NCBI GenBank assembly: GCA_944322865.1
Contig: CALUQJ010000005.1
Coordinates: forward strand, 1-48,394
Origin: Candidatus Gastranaerophilales bacterium
GTDB taxonomy: Bacteria > Cyanobacteriota > Vampirovibrionia > Gastranaerophilales > Gastranaerophilaceae
Reading direction: 5' to 3'
Length of the DNA stretch: 48,394 nucleotides
Shown one piece after another: positions 22,724 through 44,191 of the stretch (position 1 is its first letter; each line of letters begins with the position of its first letter). A program made the translations under genes and the position numbers. Below the pieces are notes generated by a model. That model made no database searches. It was not told where the DNA came from and saw only the letters and a list, made by a program, of their open reading frames with translations.

Positions 22724-23623
22724 ATGCAAATTCAAAGTGTAGATAAAAATTACCGGCCGCAATTTTCGGGTTTGACAAGAACATTGTCAAAAAACTATTT
22801 TGCGACTTTTGAAGAAATCAAAGATGTATTTGAAAAACACCCCAAAGCAGAGGGTATTGCGGGCTCTTTACCTTATTCATGGATAAAAAATATTCAGCAC
22901 AAACCTAAAGCCTTTCGCGACAGCGCAATAAAAGAAGTCTATCAAACTTTTCGTGATATATTTACAGAACCTGAAATAAAAAGTCTCAAAGAAAAATCTA
23001 AAATCCTGACAAAAGCTTTACACAAAGCTGAAATTTTACCCGAAAGCAATATCGTAATTATTAAAAGCAGAAAGCTTGACGGGCGAACTATATCAGGAGT
23101 ATTTACAATACACGAAAAAGGTAAAAATCCTGCACTTGAACCTGTATTTATAAAAAAGTTTAAAGACAAAGAGCAAAGAGCCTTTAGAAAAGATTATGAC
23201 GGATTATACCCCGAAACAGCACTAGGCCTGCATTTTAACAAACTTATGGCTGACAGGCATATCTGGAAATTTTTCTGGTCCGACGTAAAAGCCGGCTATA
23301 TAGCCTCCCACTATGATGCGCAGCCCCAAAATGTAAAAATTCCGCGGCATTTGATGCTATCAAGTGACGAAATTGACAAAGAAAATTATTTTAAAAAATT
23401 GATGAAAATTACCGGTGATTATACCGATATCCGAAAAATCTTAGCAAAATACGGATTTATACATAAGGATTATCATGACGAAAATATCGTAATTACCCGT
23501 GACAAAAAAGGCAATTTAATCACCCGCCTTATTGATTTAGGCCGGATTATGCGGCTTAATGAACGCAATTCTTATTATCTTAAATTCATCAACTACAATC
23601 ACGCAACCAAAAGTTTTGAATAA
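22724..23623 (+). CDS. tagged protein with a kinase-like catalytic loop, function unknown
   Basis: The 299-residue protein starts MQIQSVDKNYRPQFSG, a clear example of the recurring N-terminal motif. The C-terminal third reads FIHKDYHDENIVI ... LIDLGRI. This resembles the catalytic loop HxDxxxxN and metal-binding DxG of protein and aminoglycoside kinases, and a lysine in VFIKKFKDKE could be the ATP-binding Lys. The N-terminal 100 residues are helical. There is no signal peptide. It follows tsaD by 33 bases and overlaps the convergent gshB by 25 bases. A small-molecule or protein kinase is a reasonable guess, not a firm call. Confidence 0.65.
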   Translation: MQIQSVDKNYRPQFSGLTRTLSKNYFATFEEIKDVFEKHPKAEGIAGSLPYSWIKNIQHKPKAFRDSAIKEVYQTFRDIFTEPEIKSLKEKSKILTKALHKAEILPESNIVIIKSRKLDGRTISGVFTIHEKGKNPALEPVFIKKFKDKEQRAFRKDYDGLYPETALGLHFNKLMADRHIWKFFWSDVKAGYIASHYDAQPQNVKIPRHLMLSSDEIDKENYFKKLMKITGDYTDIRKILAKYGFIHKDYHDENIVITRDKKGNLITRLIDLGRIMRLNERNSYYLKFINYNHATKSFE

Positions 23624-32583: not shown

Positions 32584-33225
32584 TTATCTATGGTGATGGT
32601 GACGCGGCGGCGGTAATGGTCTATGATGATGCATCGGCGGATGATAAGGATGCGGATGATAGAAATACGGATTTGCAAATATTTGCAGCAAATTCATAAA
32701 GTTTGCAATGTTTTTGGACTGCATATAATCTTCCATTATGTTTTTATATTCGCCGTAATTAATTGTATTAGGGTTTGAGCCGTTATTATTGTACCGTCTT
32801 GAAAGATTTTTAACGAGATTTGCTGTATTTACTTTCTGCGCTCTTGTCATAGGGTAAGTATGTGTCATATTCCAGTTGTACTCTTCAAGACCGACAACTT
32901 CATTTACGGAAATTTGTCCGTTTTGTTTTATTGCGCTGTCAATTTCGTTGAACACATCCGGCATGGTCTTTTCGTAATCTTCATTAGTTACATCGCCGTA
33001 CACAAAGCAATTCGGGATATTCATAACAGGTGCTGTTGGTACATAATACTGAACAGGCGGGTAATACGGCACATAATATTGTGCATTAGCTTCCTGTGTC
33101 GGCACTGCTGTTGCAAGTGCTATCATTGCGGCTCCTGCTGCTGTTTTTACTCCGTTTGCTTTTTTAGAATTTTCACCAGTAAAATTTGTACGGTGCGGTG
33201 TTGAATTGATTGCAGAAATTTTCAT
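32584..33225 (-). CDS. tagged protein with a His/Pro-rich C-terminus, function unknown
   Basis: The 213-residue protein starts MKISAINSTPHRTNFTGENS, the clearest example of the shared N-terminal motif. A hydrophobic stretch follows (AAGAAMIALATAVPTQEANA) that looks like a signal or anchor helix placed after the tag. The middle is helical (DVFNEIDSAIKQNGQISVNEV). The last 25 residues alternate His and Pro (HPHPYHPPMHHH, then PPPRHHHHR), a likely metal-binding tail. An AGGGG site precedes the ATG. It ends one base from the ABC ATPase gene stop, convergent. Confidence 0.68.
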   Translation of the reverse strand: MKISAINSTPHRTNFTGENSKKANGVKTAAGAAMIALATAVPTQEANAQYYVPYYPPVQYYVPTAPVMNIPNCFVYGDVTNEDYEKTMPDVFNEIDSAIKQNGQISVNEVVGLEEYNWNMTHTYPMTRAQKVNTANLVKNLSRRYNNNGSNPNTINYGEYKNIMEDYMQSKNIANFMNLLQIFANPYFYHPHPYHPPMHHHRPLPPPRHHHHR

Positions 33226-35582: not shown

Positions 35583-35987
35583 TTATACTTCGTCTTCATC
35601 CTGCATTATATCCATAAATTTTGTACCGAGTTTATTGAAAAAGTTTTTGATTTTTTGACCGGTTGTCTGGTTGTATTTCAACTTCAAATCCTGCTCTTTT
35701 ACAACATAGTTGGCGCAGTGTTCATAAAAATCTTCATTGTCTTTCATCATTACAACCGATTTCAAACCTTTGTTATTAATATAGTCTTTTTCGCGCTGGG
35801 CGGAAACTGTCACAATACCTCTTGCGTGATTTTGCTCCAAAAATAGATCATAAGGTTTTTTATCAATTATTTTTGCCAATTTAGAAGCTGATTTTTTTAT
35901 TAATTTAGTCGGAACAGCACTAAATTCTCCCACGAGGATAACATTACCTTTAAAATTTGGTTGATTAGAGATGTTTTGTACTTGCAT
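35583..35987 (-). CDS. tagged small protein, function unknown
   Basis: An AAAGGA site precedes the ATG at 35987; the frame is open 13 codons further into the radical SAM gene without support. The protein has 134 residues and starts MQVQNISNQPNFKGNVI, again the shared N-terminal motif. The rest is soluble, with strands and helices (GIVTVSAQREKDYINNKGL, KIKNFFNKLGTKFMDIM) and an acidic end. It follows the radical SAM gene on the same strand with overlap-like spacing and precedes the acetyl-CoA synthetase gene. No family recognised. Confidence 0.65.
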   Translation of the reverse strand: MQVQNISNQPNFKGNVILVGEFSAVPTKLIKKSASKLAKIIDKKPYDLFLEQNHARGIVTVSAQREKDYINNKGLKSVVMMKDNEDFYEHCANYVVKEQDLKLKYNQTTGQKIKNFFNKLGTKFMDIMQDEDEV

Positions 35988-36004
35988 AATTTTTCCTTTC
36001 AAAA

Positions 36005-36628
36005 TTAGTATCCGTTTACAATCCACTCTCTCACACGGAATTTAGCGCCGAGTTCTCCGGCAATTTTTTTACAAGAGTCAAGGTCAAGATGCTGCCCCTT
36101 GTAACCTTCAACAACAGTTGCCACAACAGAAATACCTTCATTTGAACAGCATCTAATAAAACTTTTTACTTCATCGTAGGCGTTTTCTATTTTAGGCTGT
36201 GAATATTCGTTATATTCTTCTTTAGTTGCGCCGTTCAGACTTACTGAAAATTCATCTACAAGACCTTTTATTTCCGGAACTACATTTTTTTTATAAACAA
36301 AATTTGCATGTCCGTTTGTGTTTACACGGATTTTTGTGTCCGGAAATTTTGATTTAATATATTCAGCCAAAGCTTTAAGCTGTTCCAGTTTTAGCATTGG
36401 TTCGCCGTAACCGCAAAAAACAACTTCTTTTGACGGAGTTTGTGCATAAATTTTTTCAAACTGCTCAATTAAATCCTGAATATCGTAATTTTCATTATCC
36501 AGCCATAACTCTTGTCCACAGACGTCATTTTTGTCGTTTCTCAGGCAAAATATACAGTTATTTGTACATCTGTTTGTCAGGTTTACATATATTTTATTTT
36601 CTAATGTATAAACTAAAATATTTGTCAC
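36005..36628 (-). CDS. TatD-linked radical SAM protein
   Basis: The start is a GTG preceded by GAGGTAG. The 207 residues begin with the radical SAM motif CTNNCIFC (C21, C25, C28). FCGYGEPML and VDEFSVSLNGATKEEYNEY follow, as in the short radical SAM proteins linked to tatD (TIGR04038-type). The protein lacks an extra iron-sulfur domain. Its role is unknown, and tatD itself is not in this window. It is followed by a tagged protein gene on the same strand. Confidence 0.85.
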   Translation of the reverse strand: MTNILVYTLENKIYVNLTNRCTNNCIFCLRNDKNDVCGQELWLDNENYDIQDLIEQFEKIYAQTPSKEVVFCGYGEPMLKLEQLKALAEYIKSKFPDTKIRVNTNGHANFVYKKNVVPEIKGLVDEFSVSLNGATKEEYNEYSQPKIENAYDEVKSFIRCCSNEGISVVATVVEGYKGQHLDLDSCKKIAGELGAKFRVREWIVNGY

Positions 36629-39947: not shown

Positions 39948-41909
39948 TTATGCAACAAGATCAAGTTGTTCGGTCGGTTCAGGCTTTTTCAAAAATGCAG
40001 CAAGTTCATTCAAATGAGATATCAAAGGTTGAGCCTCTCTATTAAGTCGTTCTCTGAGTTCTGCTGCTTCCTGAGGATTTTTATCGTTCTTCTTCGCAAC
40101 AGACATATCTACTTTTGACTGTACTGCCTGAGCCAATAATTCCGGTATATTTGGCGCTGTAGGATTTTCTGAGGACAGGTTTTTGTAGTAAGTATCAATG
40201 TAGTTGTTATTCATACGTAATTTCCAGTTGGAATTGTTCATCTGCCCAGGAATATTATACCGCTGATCTATTGCAAAAAAGTCTGCAAATGACATCTGGA
40301 TATTCTTACTGCTTCTGAATAAATCTACGAATTTTGCCTTAATTAATTCTAAAGGATTTGTACTAATAGCCTGTCTGAATTGTGCCTGTTCATCGCGTTT
40401 AGCAGGATCAGGCTTCAAATATCCGACAAGGTATTCTTTATCCCAGGTGTTTAAATTCATCATTCTTGTCGGCGGGGAATCATGTGAACTTATCAACGAT
40501 GTATCATTGTAATCTGCGGATTCGCCTTTATCCCATTCTAACTGTTTTATGCTTGGCAAGTTGAATTTGCCATAATATATTTCATTAAATACATTCGTTC
40601 TGTCGCCTAAATCTTCCCAGACAACATCGTTTATACTAACACCTTTTTCTTCAAGTGTTGGTAATACTATTTTTTCCAGAATTTTTCTGTAATTACCGTC
40701 CGGATCAATTTCTTGCATGTTAGAGATATAGTTACCATGAACACTACGGACAACACCATTAGATGTATATACTGAATTTACATCATATATCCACGGATCA
40801 ACCAGTCCCATAGCATGATCTATACGAACTGTTTCACAGTATTCAAGAGCTGATAATAATTTGTTTTTAAGGAATTGACCAGCAACATCAAGCGAGCCGT
40901 CAGACTTGAACAAGCGTTTAGGATTAAGAACAGGTAAATCCCAAGCTTGCGGCGAATTGTCTTTGCCGCCGTATTTACAGCCGATGGCATATCCCGGCAA
41001 AAAAGCTTCTCGGTTTGCCCAGACATCTGATTTTGAACAGCCAACGAGTAAATCATTTATGTATGTAAAATGATTTGCATCACGAAATTCTTTGTTTTCA
41101 CGTATCTGTTTATCTATTAAAAACTGGGTAAAACTGTTTTTGTCTATCTTATCTTTTGAGCGATTTACAATTTGATTGTAGCGTTTCACTGCTATTCTGT
41201 CACCTTTATTCAGACGTAATATCAAGTCTGCATCAAGTTGATTTTCCCAAACCGTAAAATCATCAGTACCGTTCATTTTGGATAAAATTTTAAATATCCC
41301 GTCATTAACGAGCCAGTCTGCTGATTTTTCTTTAAATTCAACAAATTCCCTGTTCAGTGCAACAGCAGCAGGATCGCCTTCACGTAATTTCTGTTTGAAG
41401 GTAGTATAGGATTCTTCAAGCGCGATATCTATGTTTTCAAAAGCTTCTAGGAAATTTGCATAATTATAATTCTGACCTTTTATTTTATTTAAATCGGTTA
41501 TATTATCAAAAGTCTTTTCTGATAATATTTCAGCATATTCAGGTTTTGTCAGTTTTTTGGCATCAATAAACAACGGATTTTTTGCATAAATTTTAGAGGC
41601 ATACGGAGAAATATCAAAGCTTGAAATTTCTCCTGATGGTCCTAACTGCATTGCGTTAAAACCATACATCATAAATTCTTTAATCAGACCTTTAGCAGGA
41701 TCGGAGTATGGAGTACCAACCCCTATATCCGGACCTGAGGAAGGAAAGCATGATCCGTGTAATATTATTGCACGGTTTTCTATACCGAGATACTTAAATG
41801 CTTCATTGCAGGTGTCCTGCATTTCTTTTACCTTTTCGCCGCGAGGACGCTCTGTGAATGCAGGTTGACTGTTAAAAATATTGTAATTGTTTATCCCTAA
41901 AATTTTCAT
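39948..41909 (-). CDS. malQ: 4-alpha-glucanotransferase (GH77, MalQ-type) with a tag-like N-terminus
   Basis: The enzyme rearranges alpha-1,4-glucan chains during glycogen or maltodextrin turnover. The GH77 catalytic residues are visible: the nucleophile in TVRIDHAMGLVDPW, the acid/base in VVWEDLGDRT, and the third Asp in LISSHDSPPT. The GVGTPYSDPAKGLIKEF region matches the substrate loop. At 653 residues it is longer than the usual 500-ish enzyme, with an insertion near 150-260. It starts MKILGINNYNIFNSQPAFTERP, resembling the shared N-terminal motif, before the enzyme domain begins. A GGGG site lies upstream of the ATG. Confidence 0.88.
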   Translation of the reverse strand: MKILGINNYNIFNSQPAFTERPRGEKVKEMQDTCNEAFKYLGIENRAIILHGSCFPSSGPDIGVGTPYSDPAKGLIKEFMMYGFNAMQLGPSGEISSFDISPYASKIYAKNPLFIDAKKLTKPEYAEILSEKTFDNITDLNKIKGQNYNYANFLEAFENIDIALEESYTTFKQKLREGDPAAVALNREFVEFKEKSADWLVNDGIFKILSKMNGTDDFTVWENQLDADLILRLNKGDRIAVKRYNQIVNRSKDKIDKNSFTQFLIDKQIRENKEFRDANHFTYINDLLVGCSKSDVWANREAFLPGYAIGCKYGGKDNSPQAWDLPVLNPKRLFKSDGSLDVAGQFLKNKLLSALEYCETVRIDHAMGLVDPWIYDVNSVYTSNGVVRSVHGNYISNMQEIDPDGNYRKILEKIVLPTLEEKGVSINDVVWEDLGDRTNVFNEIYYGKFNLPSIKQLEWDKGESADYNDTSLISSHDSPPTRMMNLNTWDKEYLVGYLKPDPAKRDEQAQFRQAISTNPLELIKAKFVDLFRSSKNIQMSFADFFAIDQRYNIPGQMNNSNWKLRMNNNYIDTYYKNLSSENPTAPNIPELLAQAVQSKVDMSVAKKNDKNPQEAAELRERLNREAQPLISHLNELAAFLKKPEPTEQLDLVA

Positions 41910-41942: not shown

Positions 41943-43418
41943 CTATATTTGATCTAAAATTTCTAACTGACAATTACAGCTGACTTCTTCACGCGCAAGA
42001 ACAACTATATTGTTTAAATAATTGTTCAGTATTGTAAAGAGCAACTGCCTGTAATCTATTGGTACAATTAGTTTTATCAAATCCATATTTAATTCTTTAG
42101 CTCTTTCTTCTATCTCACCTGCAAGATTTTCAACAAAATCCGCATCGATTCTGACGACTTCGTCGCCGTCTGCAAATTCATCCACAGTCAGCAAATCCAG
42201 TGTATCATCAGAAATTTCTATTGCACTGATTACACCGTTTTCATCTGCAAAAGATTTACAGATTTGGCGCGAAAGCGCAAGACGTAATTTTTTAAGTATA
42301 TCTATTCTGGCATGGTCTTCTGCAAAATCATTCAGTTTTTCAAAAATATAGGTAATATCTTTGATAGATATTCTTTCAGTAATAAGACTTGTCAGGATAA
42401 ATCTCAAATCAGAAAGCGAAAGATAATCCGGTATAAGATTTTCTACCAGAAATGCATTTTTTCTGCTTACTATTTCAATATATTTGTCAAGTTCATTGTA
42501 ATCAAGAAGTTCATCAGCATATTTTATTGCAGAAAATTCAAGTGCGCGGGAGATGTACCTACAGCCTGAAATACCTTTTTCCCAGAAATCTTTTGCCTGT
42601 TCTTTTTCTATCCAGACAATATCCTTACCGGTTATAAAATCTACATCGTTAATTACATTTTTTATTTTTTTATCAATATGAATATCTTCGGCAAAATACA
42701 TGATATAATTCGGATATACCAGACCTTTATACACATCCAATCCGCGGATACGTATTGCAAATTCATACGGGTTAAGCCCCTCATCATCCTGAAAAATGAT
42801 TTTAGGAATTACAAACCCTAATTCTTCTGTCAGTTTTAATCTTGATTTAACGGTTTCTGCTACGAGTTCTTCTTCTCCGATATCCTGATCAGGATCGACA
42901 TACCCTAGAATTTCTTCACTCAAATATATTCCGAGCTTTTCTGTTTGAAGTTTTGAATACATTTCATCCGGAGAGGTGGCACGTGCAAGTTTTTCTTTCA
43001 AATCATCAAGCTCTTTTAGCCCTGCGGAAATTTTATCATTAAGCTTTTTACGTCCGACAGACGCCGGAGCTTCACCTTCAAGCTCCTGTTTAATTCTGGC
43101 TATTTTATTTTTTTGCTCTCTGATTTTACCCTGAATTTCTAAACACTGTTCATAAGGCGTAAGTTTTGGTGAAAGCATTTTTTCCATCTGGCTTTTAAAC
43201 GTTGAGATGTTAATTATATCAGAATTGGAATTTCTGTCATAATCAGGGGCTTCCATCATAAAAATGCAATTGTATTGAAAACCTTCTTCGGCTTCCACTT
43301 CGTGCATGCTGTATAATTCCCAGCCATTCATAGACATTTCGTTTAATAAATTTTGAAGTTCCTGAACATTTTCACTCGAACAGGTTTTTATCACATATTG
43401 CATTTTTTTGTTAAACAT
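41943..43418 (-). CDS. soluble protein with an FlhA C-terminal-like domain
   Basis: The 491 residues have three parts. Residues 6-55 (YVIKTCSSENVQELQNLL) look like a DUF4177-type small domain. A coiled coil covers about 95-155. From about 160 to 460 the sequence follows the FlhA cytoplasmic domain: LKLTEELGFVIPKIIFQDDE, NPYEFAIRIRGLDVYKG, SRALEFSAIKYADELLDYNE, and the strongest match ITERISIKDITYIFEKLNDF then RLALSRQI. FlhA is the export gate of the flagellar type III system; its eight-helix N-terminus is absent here and no other flagellar gene is nearby. An AAGGAG site precedes the ATG. It follows the phosphorylase gene by 2 bases. Confidence 0.75.
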   Translation of the reverse strand: MFNKKMQYVIKTCSSENVQELQNLLNEMSMNGWELYSMHEVEAEEGFQYNCIFMMEAPDYDRNSNSDIINISTFKSQMEKMLSPKLTPYEQCLEIQGKIREQKNKIARIKQELEGEAPASVGRKKLNDKISAGLKELDDLKEKLARATSPDEMYSKLQTEKLGIYLSEEILGYVDPDQDIGEEELVAETVKSRLKLTEELGFVIPKIIFQDDEGLNPYEFAIRIRGLDVYKGLVYPNYIMYFAEDIHIDKKIKNVINDVDFITGKDIVWIEKEQAKDFWEKGISGCRYISRALEFSAIKYADELLDYNELDKYIEIVSRKNAFLVENLIPDYLSLSDLRFILTSLITERISIKDITYIFEKLNDFAEDHARIDILKKLRLALSRQICKSFADENGVISAIEISDDTLDLLTVDEFADGDEVVRIDADFVENLAGEIEERAKELNMDLIKLIVPIDYRQLLFTILNNYLNNIVVLAREEVSCNCQLEILDQI

Positions 43419-43420
43419 AA

Positions 43421-44191
43421 TTACTCCTTGCTTTTGTTAATAAGGATTTTTATTGCTTCAATTGCAGTGCGTATTGCTTTATCTGTATCATGAACAACCG
43501 GATTTTCCAACCCTTCTTTTTCTCTTTCCTGATTTGCAACAGTCAAGAATACAGAGCCGATTTTGACTTTTCTGAAACTTGCAACGACAAAAAGCGCAGC
43601 AGATTCCATTTCTGAAGCCAGACACCCGAGTCTTTTCCACGCGTCCCATTTATCAACAAGTTCATAACTTACAGGCATTTTTTCAGGAGAATGCTGTCCA
43701 TAAAAAGAATCCTTACACTGGACAATGCCTCTGTGGAACTCCCCGCCGGCTGACTTTGCAGCGGTAGTCAAAGCATTAACAATATCAATATCAGCCACAG
43801 CCGGAAATTCTATCGGAGCATATTCTTTGCTGGTGCCTTCCATTCTGACAGCGCCCGTTGCAATTACTATATCGCCGCCTTTTACATTAATATCAATTCC
43901 GCCGCAGGTTCCGACCCTGATAAATGTTTCTGCGCCTACATTTACAAGTTCTTCCAACGCAATAGCAGCAGAAGGACCGCCTATTCCGGTTGAAGTTACA
44001 CTCACCTTTTCTCCGTTAAGATAACCTGTATAAGTTGTATATTCACGGTTGTCTGCAACGAGTTTGGCATCATCAAAATATTCCGCTATTTTTTTGCATC
44101 GTTTAGGATCTCCCGGCAAAATAACATATTTACCGACATCTCCTTCTCTTAAACCGATATGATACTGTTCTCCGTCATGAGAGTATTTCAT
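43421..44191 (-). CDS. udp: uridine phosphorylase
   Basis: The enzyme splits uridine with phosphate to uracil and ribose-1-phosphate. The 256 residues are of normal length for the trimer-of-dimers family. Seen are [16 protein letters not shown], the phosphate-binding [28 protein letters not shown], and the substrate site [13 protein letters not shown]. Related purine phosphorylases share this fold; the [10 protein letters not shown] segment and overall pattern favour uridine. A GGAG site precedes the ATG. It lies in one unit with the FlhA-C-like gene and works downstream of cytidine deaminase. Confidence 0.88.

Follow-up and report, generated by a model that had tools for sequence, protein, structure and literature searches.

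Introduction

FlhA and SctV are the cargo-receiving gates of type III machines and are described as membrane proteins with a nine-fold cytosolic ring. FlhX is a free homologue of the C-terminal domain of FlhB. It has been listed among the export-apparatus proteins (PMC10746217). In Salmonella, the residues E351, W354 and D356 of the FlhA linker bind to the domains D1 and D3 of the adjacent subunit; W354 is also able to fill the chaperone pocket of this neighbour, in competition with chaperones (PMC8166844). The FlhA linker also stabilises the nonamer (PMC8213127).

The DNA analysed here, called the window, is a stretch of 48,394 nucleotides from Candidatus Gastranaerophilales bacterium (contig CALUQJ010000005.1). 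The Gastranaerophilales are related to the cyanobacteria, are not photosynthetic, and live in the gut. For those genomes from the gut that have no filament genes, an incomplete or reduced flagellum has been described (PMC4040986, PMC3787301). The shared gene list in PMC3787301 contains two flhA entries, one of which is clustered with flgG, flgC, fliF, fliH, fliI, and flgE.

The window encodes a soluble protein that resembles FlhA-C, the cytoplasmic domain of FlhA in flagellar type III export, in its fold, the order of the four domains, and their C-terminal position. In contrast to FlhA, it has no membrane domain, F459, T490 and the GYXLI motif are replaced, and it carries an N-terminal domain and a helical hairpin of its own. 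The fold is also that of SctV-C of injectisomes (MxiA, YscV, CdsV), which is a nonameric ring domain, but a membrane part is absent and the sequence is less similar to SctV-C than to FlhA. Like FlhX, the protein is a free-standing copy of a cytosolic export-gate domain; unlike it, the copied protein is FlhA and not FlhB. Buchnera is a symbiont that keeps the flagellar basal body and the export machinery, and the abstract of the respective study mentions no free FlhA-C protein (PMC8109811); in contrast to Buchnera, relatives of the organism studied here pair a separate flagellar FlhA with the class-B system described below.

The gene and its neighbourhood

The open reading frame is located on the minus strand (41943-43418), starts with ATG, and encodes 491 amino acids. 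The coordinates are those of the preliminary description, which had named no strand. The start codon lies 2 nt past the stop codon of a nucleoside phosphorylase gene (43421-44191, minus strand), which is an apparent operon partner and is syntenic in relatives, and the gene has its own ribosome-binding site, AAGGAG, within the end of this upstream gene (43424-43429, minus strand). Further neighbours in the window are skp/ompH, bamA-like, and GH77 glucanotransferase genes. The stable neighbours in relatives are the bamA-like, skp, and phosphorylase genes. In a second clade the nucleoside phosphorylase gene is swapped for a gene of 435-448 codons upstream of the soluble gene; a FliI ATPase was suspected for it, but its sequence has the appearance of a thymidine phosphorylase-type enzyme.

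None of the loci of the relatives was seen to hold the soluble gene in a T3SS operon. Proximity to fliI in four related loci, and to the hook (flgE) and fliK genes in one, is loose and clade-specific, and in a few genomes the gene is 15 kb away from the class-B flhA defined below. In one relative (locus L069), and only there, it adjoins a full-length flhA. This flhA belongs to class A, and the arrangement was not taken as a linkage to class B. FliG-like candidate matches of about 35% were seen near the soluble gene in five loci of relatives (L029-L033) and were left out of the argument.

The GH77 4-alpha-glucanotransferase gene (39948-41909, minus strand) is directly downstream of the soluble gene and is present at this position in only part of the relatives. 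The N-terminal extension of its protein (MKILGINNYNIFNSQPAFTER) resembles a pattern of the approximate form M-[KQ]-x-x-x-I-(5 to 20)-x-F-[TSKQ]-G, which is shared by the proteins encoded at 22724-23623 (plus strand), 32584-33225 (minus strand), and 35583-36026 (minus strand) of the window. Roughly 20-30 more proteins of the same genome have the same N-terminal F-[TSKQ]-G pattern. Compared to internal positions, residues 4-28 show a 2.3-fold enrichment of this motif (p 6e-5), which could be a candidate export signal. The first of the three proteins has 299 amino acids and also contains a kinase-like H-K-D-Y-H-D-E-N segment; Pfam gave no match for it.

Domain structure of the soluble protein

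The preliminary description had predicted a C-terminal FlhA cytoplasmic domain without the membrane part, and both points were borne out by the profile search and by structure prediction. The Pfam family FHIPEP (PF00771) matched residues 141-482 with an E value of 1.8e-45 and 156 bits, well above the curated cut-off of 29.1. The match covered positions 312-655 of the 657 positions of the model, and thus only the membrane half, with its about eight helices, is missing. FlhA is also the closest NCBIfam family; TIGR01398 matched with an E value of 6e-42, but the match covered the C-terminal half only and its 143.8 bits are below the curated cut-off of 772. A phmmer comparison with the solved FlhA-C structure 3mix gave an E value of 7e-23. 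All structural statements refer to one AF2 monomer model, which was built on 41 relatives and has a pLDDT of 77.8, with poor values over the N-terminal 80 residues. Foldseek aligned this model with crystal and cryo-EM structures of FlhA-C and SctV-C (best E value 6.9e-22, TM scores of up to 0.82-0.84 on the target, 0.82 for 6ch2), in agreement with a D1-D4 FlhA-C fold.

The N-terminal region (residues 8-56, 43251-43397, minus strand) had been described as DUF4177-like. This holds in so far as the region is strongly conserved, with a mean pairwise identity of 67% within the soluble family and the first 60 residues among the best conserved parts, but the match to DUF4177 (PF13783; E 0.039, 14.6 bits) is below the curated cut-off of 25, and the confidence of the AF2 model is low here. 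The coiled coil that had been proposed to follow was recovered by AF2 in the form of a predicted two-helix hairpin (residues 88-114 and 121-147). The hairpin makes up most of a helical region (residues 71-147, 42978-43208, minus strand) that stands where FlhA has its membrane part and is 60% conserved in the family. A similar coil was also found in another protein (C44:13947), which has the appearance of a sigma factor; this was regarded as a chance coiled-coil match, and a further match (G116:C8) is probably of the same kind.

The borders of the remaining parts, all encoded on the minus strand, were taken from an alignment to E. coli FlhA numbering. A linker with the motif S-P-x-x-M-Y (residues 149-160, 42939-42974) lies at the place of E351/W354 of the FlhA linker. 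It is followed by the first part of D1 (residues 161-236, 42711-42938), by D2 with a family-specific D-F-W-x-x-G motif and with T263 at the position of F459 (residues 237-284, 42567-42710), and by the second part of D1, in which residue 291 corresponds to T490 (residues 285-304, 42507-42566). D3 (residues 305-383, 42270-42506) is the domain best conserved in comparison to class-B FlhA (38%), and D4 with the C-terminus (residues 384-491, 41946-42269) is strongly diverged.

Conservation and distribution

The alignment of the soluble protein with 73 relatives from Candidatus Gastranaerophilales extended over the full length, with identities of 41-92%. The dN/dS values versus the five nearest relatives were 0.04-0.08, with synonymous sites near saturation in several pairs, and the smallest values tended to fall in the N-terminal region and the coil. 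The genome of the window (1.80 Mb, 103 contigs, 99.6% complete) separately encodes a full-length FlhA of 697 amino acids. A decaying flhA fragment or an assembly artefact would explain the missing N-terminal half, but nothing more, and the low dN/dS values, the conserved architecture in the relatives, and the intact paralogue elsewhere in the same genome rule out this reading, to which we assign practically no weight.

Whole-model matches to the soluble form were found in 130 of the 131 sampled Gastranaerophilales genomes, i.e., in 113 of the 114 from the family of the window, with G129 as the only exception, and in all 17 from five other families of the order. The soluble form was absent from the remaining 79 sampled genomes of the class (22 of them listed match by match). 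Because it is found across the order and in none of these 79 genomes, the soluble protein is an innovation of the order Gastranaerophilales. Eleven listed genomes of three families (f8, f13, f14) have two full-length FlhA proteins each, without the soluble form. Class-B FlhA is present without it in these families, and apparently also in G129.

No sampled genome was seen that has the soluble form but not the export machine, and the two genomes that were tested and found without FliP (G145, G150) also do not have the soluble form. In two genomes (G116, G040) class-B FlhA was not detected, while FliP is present. They were considered as a sign that the soluble form is independent of class B, but with FliP in both an assembly gap is equally likely.

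Two classes of FlhA

Two classes of FlhA were distinguished by their FHIPEP scores. Class A, with at least 817 bits, was found in 48 of 145 genomes of the order, and class B, with roughly 685-736 bits, apparently occurs in nearly all genomes of the order, among the matches listed. At least 25 genomes of the order have both classes; in the genome of the window class B is the sole one, and flagellin (PF00669) gave no match in this 99.6% complete genome. The class-B operon of this genome has the order fliE-fliF-fliG-like-fliH-flhA. Matches to FliMN_C, FliP and FliQ are found on other contigs, together with FliO-like and FliR-like reading frames that were recognised by position and appearance only. 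FlhB is divided between two contig ends, and FliI is present. Rod proteins like FlgB, FlgC and FlgF/G were recognised by Flg_bb_rod matches, and reading frames resembling FliJ, FliK and hook proteins were named from appearance and gene order. Core export gate, ATPase, MS-ring, and rod are thus all represented (FliF, FliP, FlhB, FliI, FlhA, FliH, FliE, FliQ, FliMN_C, Flg_bb_rod). The genes of the set in this genome (G000) are distributed over the contigs C74, C45, C46, C35, C10, C14, and C1 (loci L089, L110, L157, L147, L101, L127, and L090).

In one relative (G011) the gene order flgF/G-flgF/G-flgB-flgC-fliE-fliF-fliG-like-fliH-flhA, with a class-B flhA, is located tail to tail with fliP-fliR-flhB-flhA, with a class-A flhA. 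The class-B gene set is probably not a decayed flagellum but a separate, unrecognised system for secretion, which is the simpler reading because class B is kept beside the true flagellar gate of class A. We infer that the flhA cluster with flgG and fliF in PMC3787301 is the class-B system. A published secretion role for it was not found in the open-access literature.

Origin of the soluble protein

A tree of the C-terminal domain was calculated with 41 soluble proteins, 18 class-B proteins, 15 class-A proteins, and E. coli FlhA. Soluble and class-B proteins formed one clade (UFBoot 100), and the AU test favoured this grouping (p 0.998) and rejected those with class A and with E. coli (p <= 0.0024). 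The support for the monophyly of the soluble clade itself was low (59), with long branches, and the soluble proteins evolve faster than class B (0.9 versus 0.14 substitutions per site). By these comparisons the soluble protein is a paralogue of class-B FlhA and not of ordinary flagellar FlhA. It originated in the ancestor of the Gastranaerophilales as a copy of the C-terminal half of class-B FlhA, with the DUF4177-like domain and the helical hairpin substituted for the membrane part.

Residues kept and lost in comparison to class-B FlhA

The linker residues P150 and M153 were found in all 41 soluble and all 18 class-B proteins and are absent from flagellar FlhA; together with Y154, which is also kept from class B, they form a P-x-x-M-Y motif. 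The chaperone pocket was changed. F459 is replaced by T in 38 of 41 soluble proteins (class B: Y in 17, F in one), and T490 by K or R, again in 38 of 41 (class B: T in 18 of 18). D456 is kept in all 41, and the hydrophobic D456/F459/T490 dimple is thus no longer complete. The GYXLI hinge motif is likewise lost, with G368 replaced by S and Y369 by E or D in 41 of 41 proteins. The identities between soluble and class-B proteins are 30% for D1, 16% for D2, 38% for D3, and 19% for D4, compared to 35%, 18%, 33%, and 37%, respectively, between class B and class A. D2 of the soluble family has acquired new invariant residues, among them D277-F278-W279 and G282. The soluble protein has thus retained the class-B linker and the ring-side domains D1 and D3, while the acceptor pocket was lost.

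Five genomes contain further small reading frames in which the matches to D1 and D3 share one frame and are separated by 2-21 residues where D2 would take up about 50, and one genome contains a small FlhA-C-like frame with D1, D3, and D4. These free FlhA-C-like proteins without D2, and mostly without D4, are encoded at G040:C7:90319-91002, G015:C24:102340-102948, G078:C17:92812-93396, G091:C10:34039-34599, G122:C2:94943-95491, and G036:C9:81044-82012. Because the mini-paralogues cover D1 and D3 without D2, the ring core has been kept repeatedly. A different, weakly related free FlhA-C-like frame of 563 amino acids was seen in another family of the class (G172:C103:5412-6488; also G148:C118, C1).

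Discussion

In the most likely reading, which we consider about 50% probable, the protein serves the filament-less class-B system as a soluble accessory subunit that forms a ring or a cap. The D1/D3 body and the P-x-x-M-Y linker would allow it to stack on or to enter the class-B FlhA ring, or to form a ring of its own. Because the chaperone pocket is missing, the usual reception of chaperone-cargo complexes would not be a task of this protein. Its function may be the capping, gating or counting of docking sites, or the recruitment of a new partner via the N-terminal domain and the remodelled domains D2 and D4. The order-wide FHIPEP matches and the conserved class-B operon, i.e., the presence of the machine in the genomes, argue for such a role, while the bamA-like, skp, and phosphorylase neighbours and the occurrence of class-B FlhA without the soluble form argue against it. 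That both occur together within the order carries no information, since each is found in nearly all of its genomes. A more far-reaching version, in which the gate of a dedicated, flagellum-derived and filament-less system has a second soluble ring, made of the soluble protein and the D1+D3 mini-paralogues, that gates access, is tentative and rather unlikely. To our knowledge, a two-layer or mixed export-gate ring has been described in no type III system.

A serious, though unlikely, alternative is exaptation, i.e., that the FlhA-C body has become a cytosolic scaffold unrelated to secretion, perhaps in envelope biogenesis or nucleoside metabolism. It keeps its weight because the genomic context is formed by bamA-like, skp, and phosphorylase genes and not by a secretion operon, and the lost pocket, the lost GYXLI motif, and the faster evolution are also in its favour. 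Against it, the soluble form was not seen apart from an export machine (FliP is present also in G116 and G040, and G145 and G150 have neither), and it is specifically the D3 domain and linker motif of class B that were kept. The preliminary description had likewise proposed a free ring domain with a new job, unrelated to flagella, for example as a scaffold or a chaperone dock. A changed job is supported, but the separation from flagella does not stand, as the protein is a paralogue of the machine's own FlhA in a genome with FliE, FliF, FliH, FliI, FliP, FliQ, an R-like protein, and FlhB, i.e., with a nearly full export machine. Of the two proposed jobs, that of a scaffold or ring is the best fit, since D1, D3 and the ring-stabilising linker motif were kept; the nonameric ring itself is a prediction, to which the conservation by domain lends indirect support. 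A soluble dock, which like ordinary FlhA-C would hold export chaperones or cargo, here as a decoy or a platform for sorting in the cytosol, could make use of the complete D1-D4 domain set. It is improbable, since almost every member has other residues in place of F459 and T490, which the full-length paralogue keeps, even though D456 persists. A role as a spare for class A, the FlhA of the true flagellum, in analogy to FlhX and FlhB, is very improbable: the soluble protein occurs also in flagellated relatives and adjoins a flagellar flhA in L069, but it groups with class B and is present in the genome of the window, where neither class-A FlhA nor flagellin was found.

Taken together, an order-wide soluble copy that is under selection, from which the pocket has been removed and in which the ring side is retained, represents a natural separation-of-function variant. 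It could be used to test directly the function of the ring apart from chaperone docking. The analysis also gave evidence that the "incomplete flagella" of gut Melainabacteria (PMC4040986, PMC3787301) are a conserved, separate, flagellum-like secretion system. Almost all genomes of the order apparently have this class-B system, and the members of the order are common bacteria of the animal gut.
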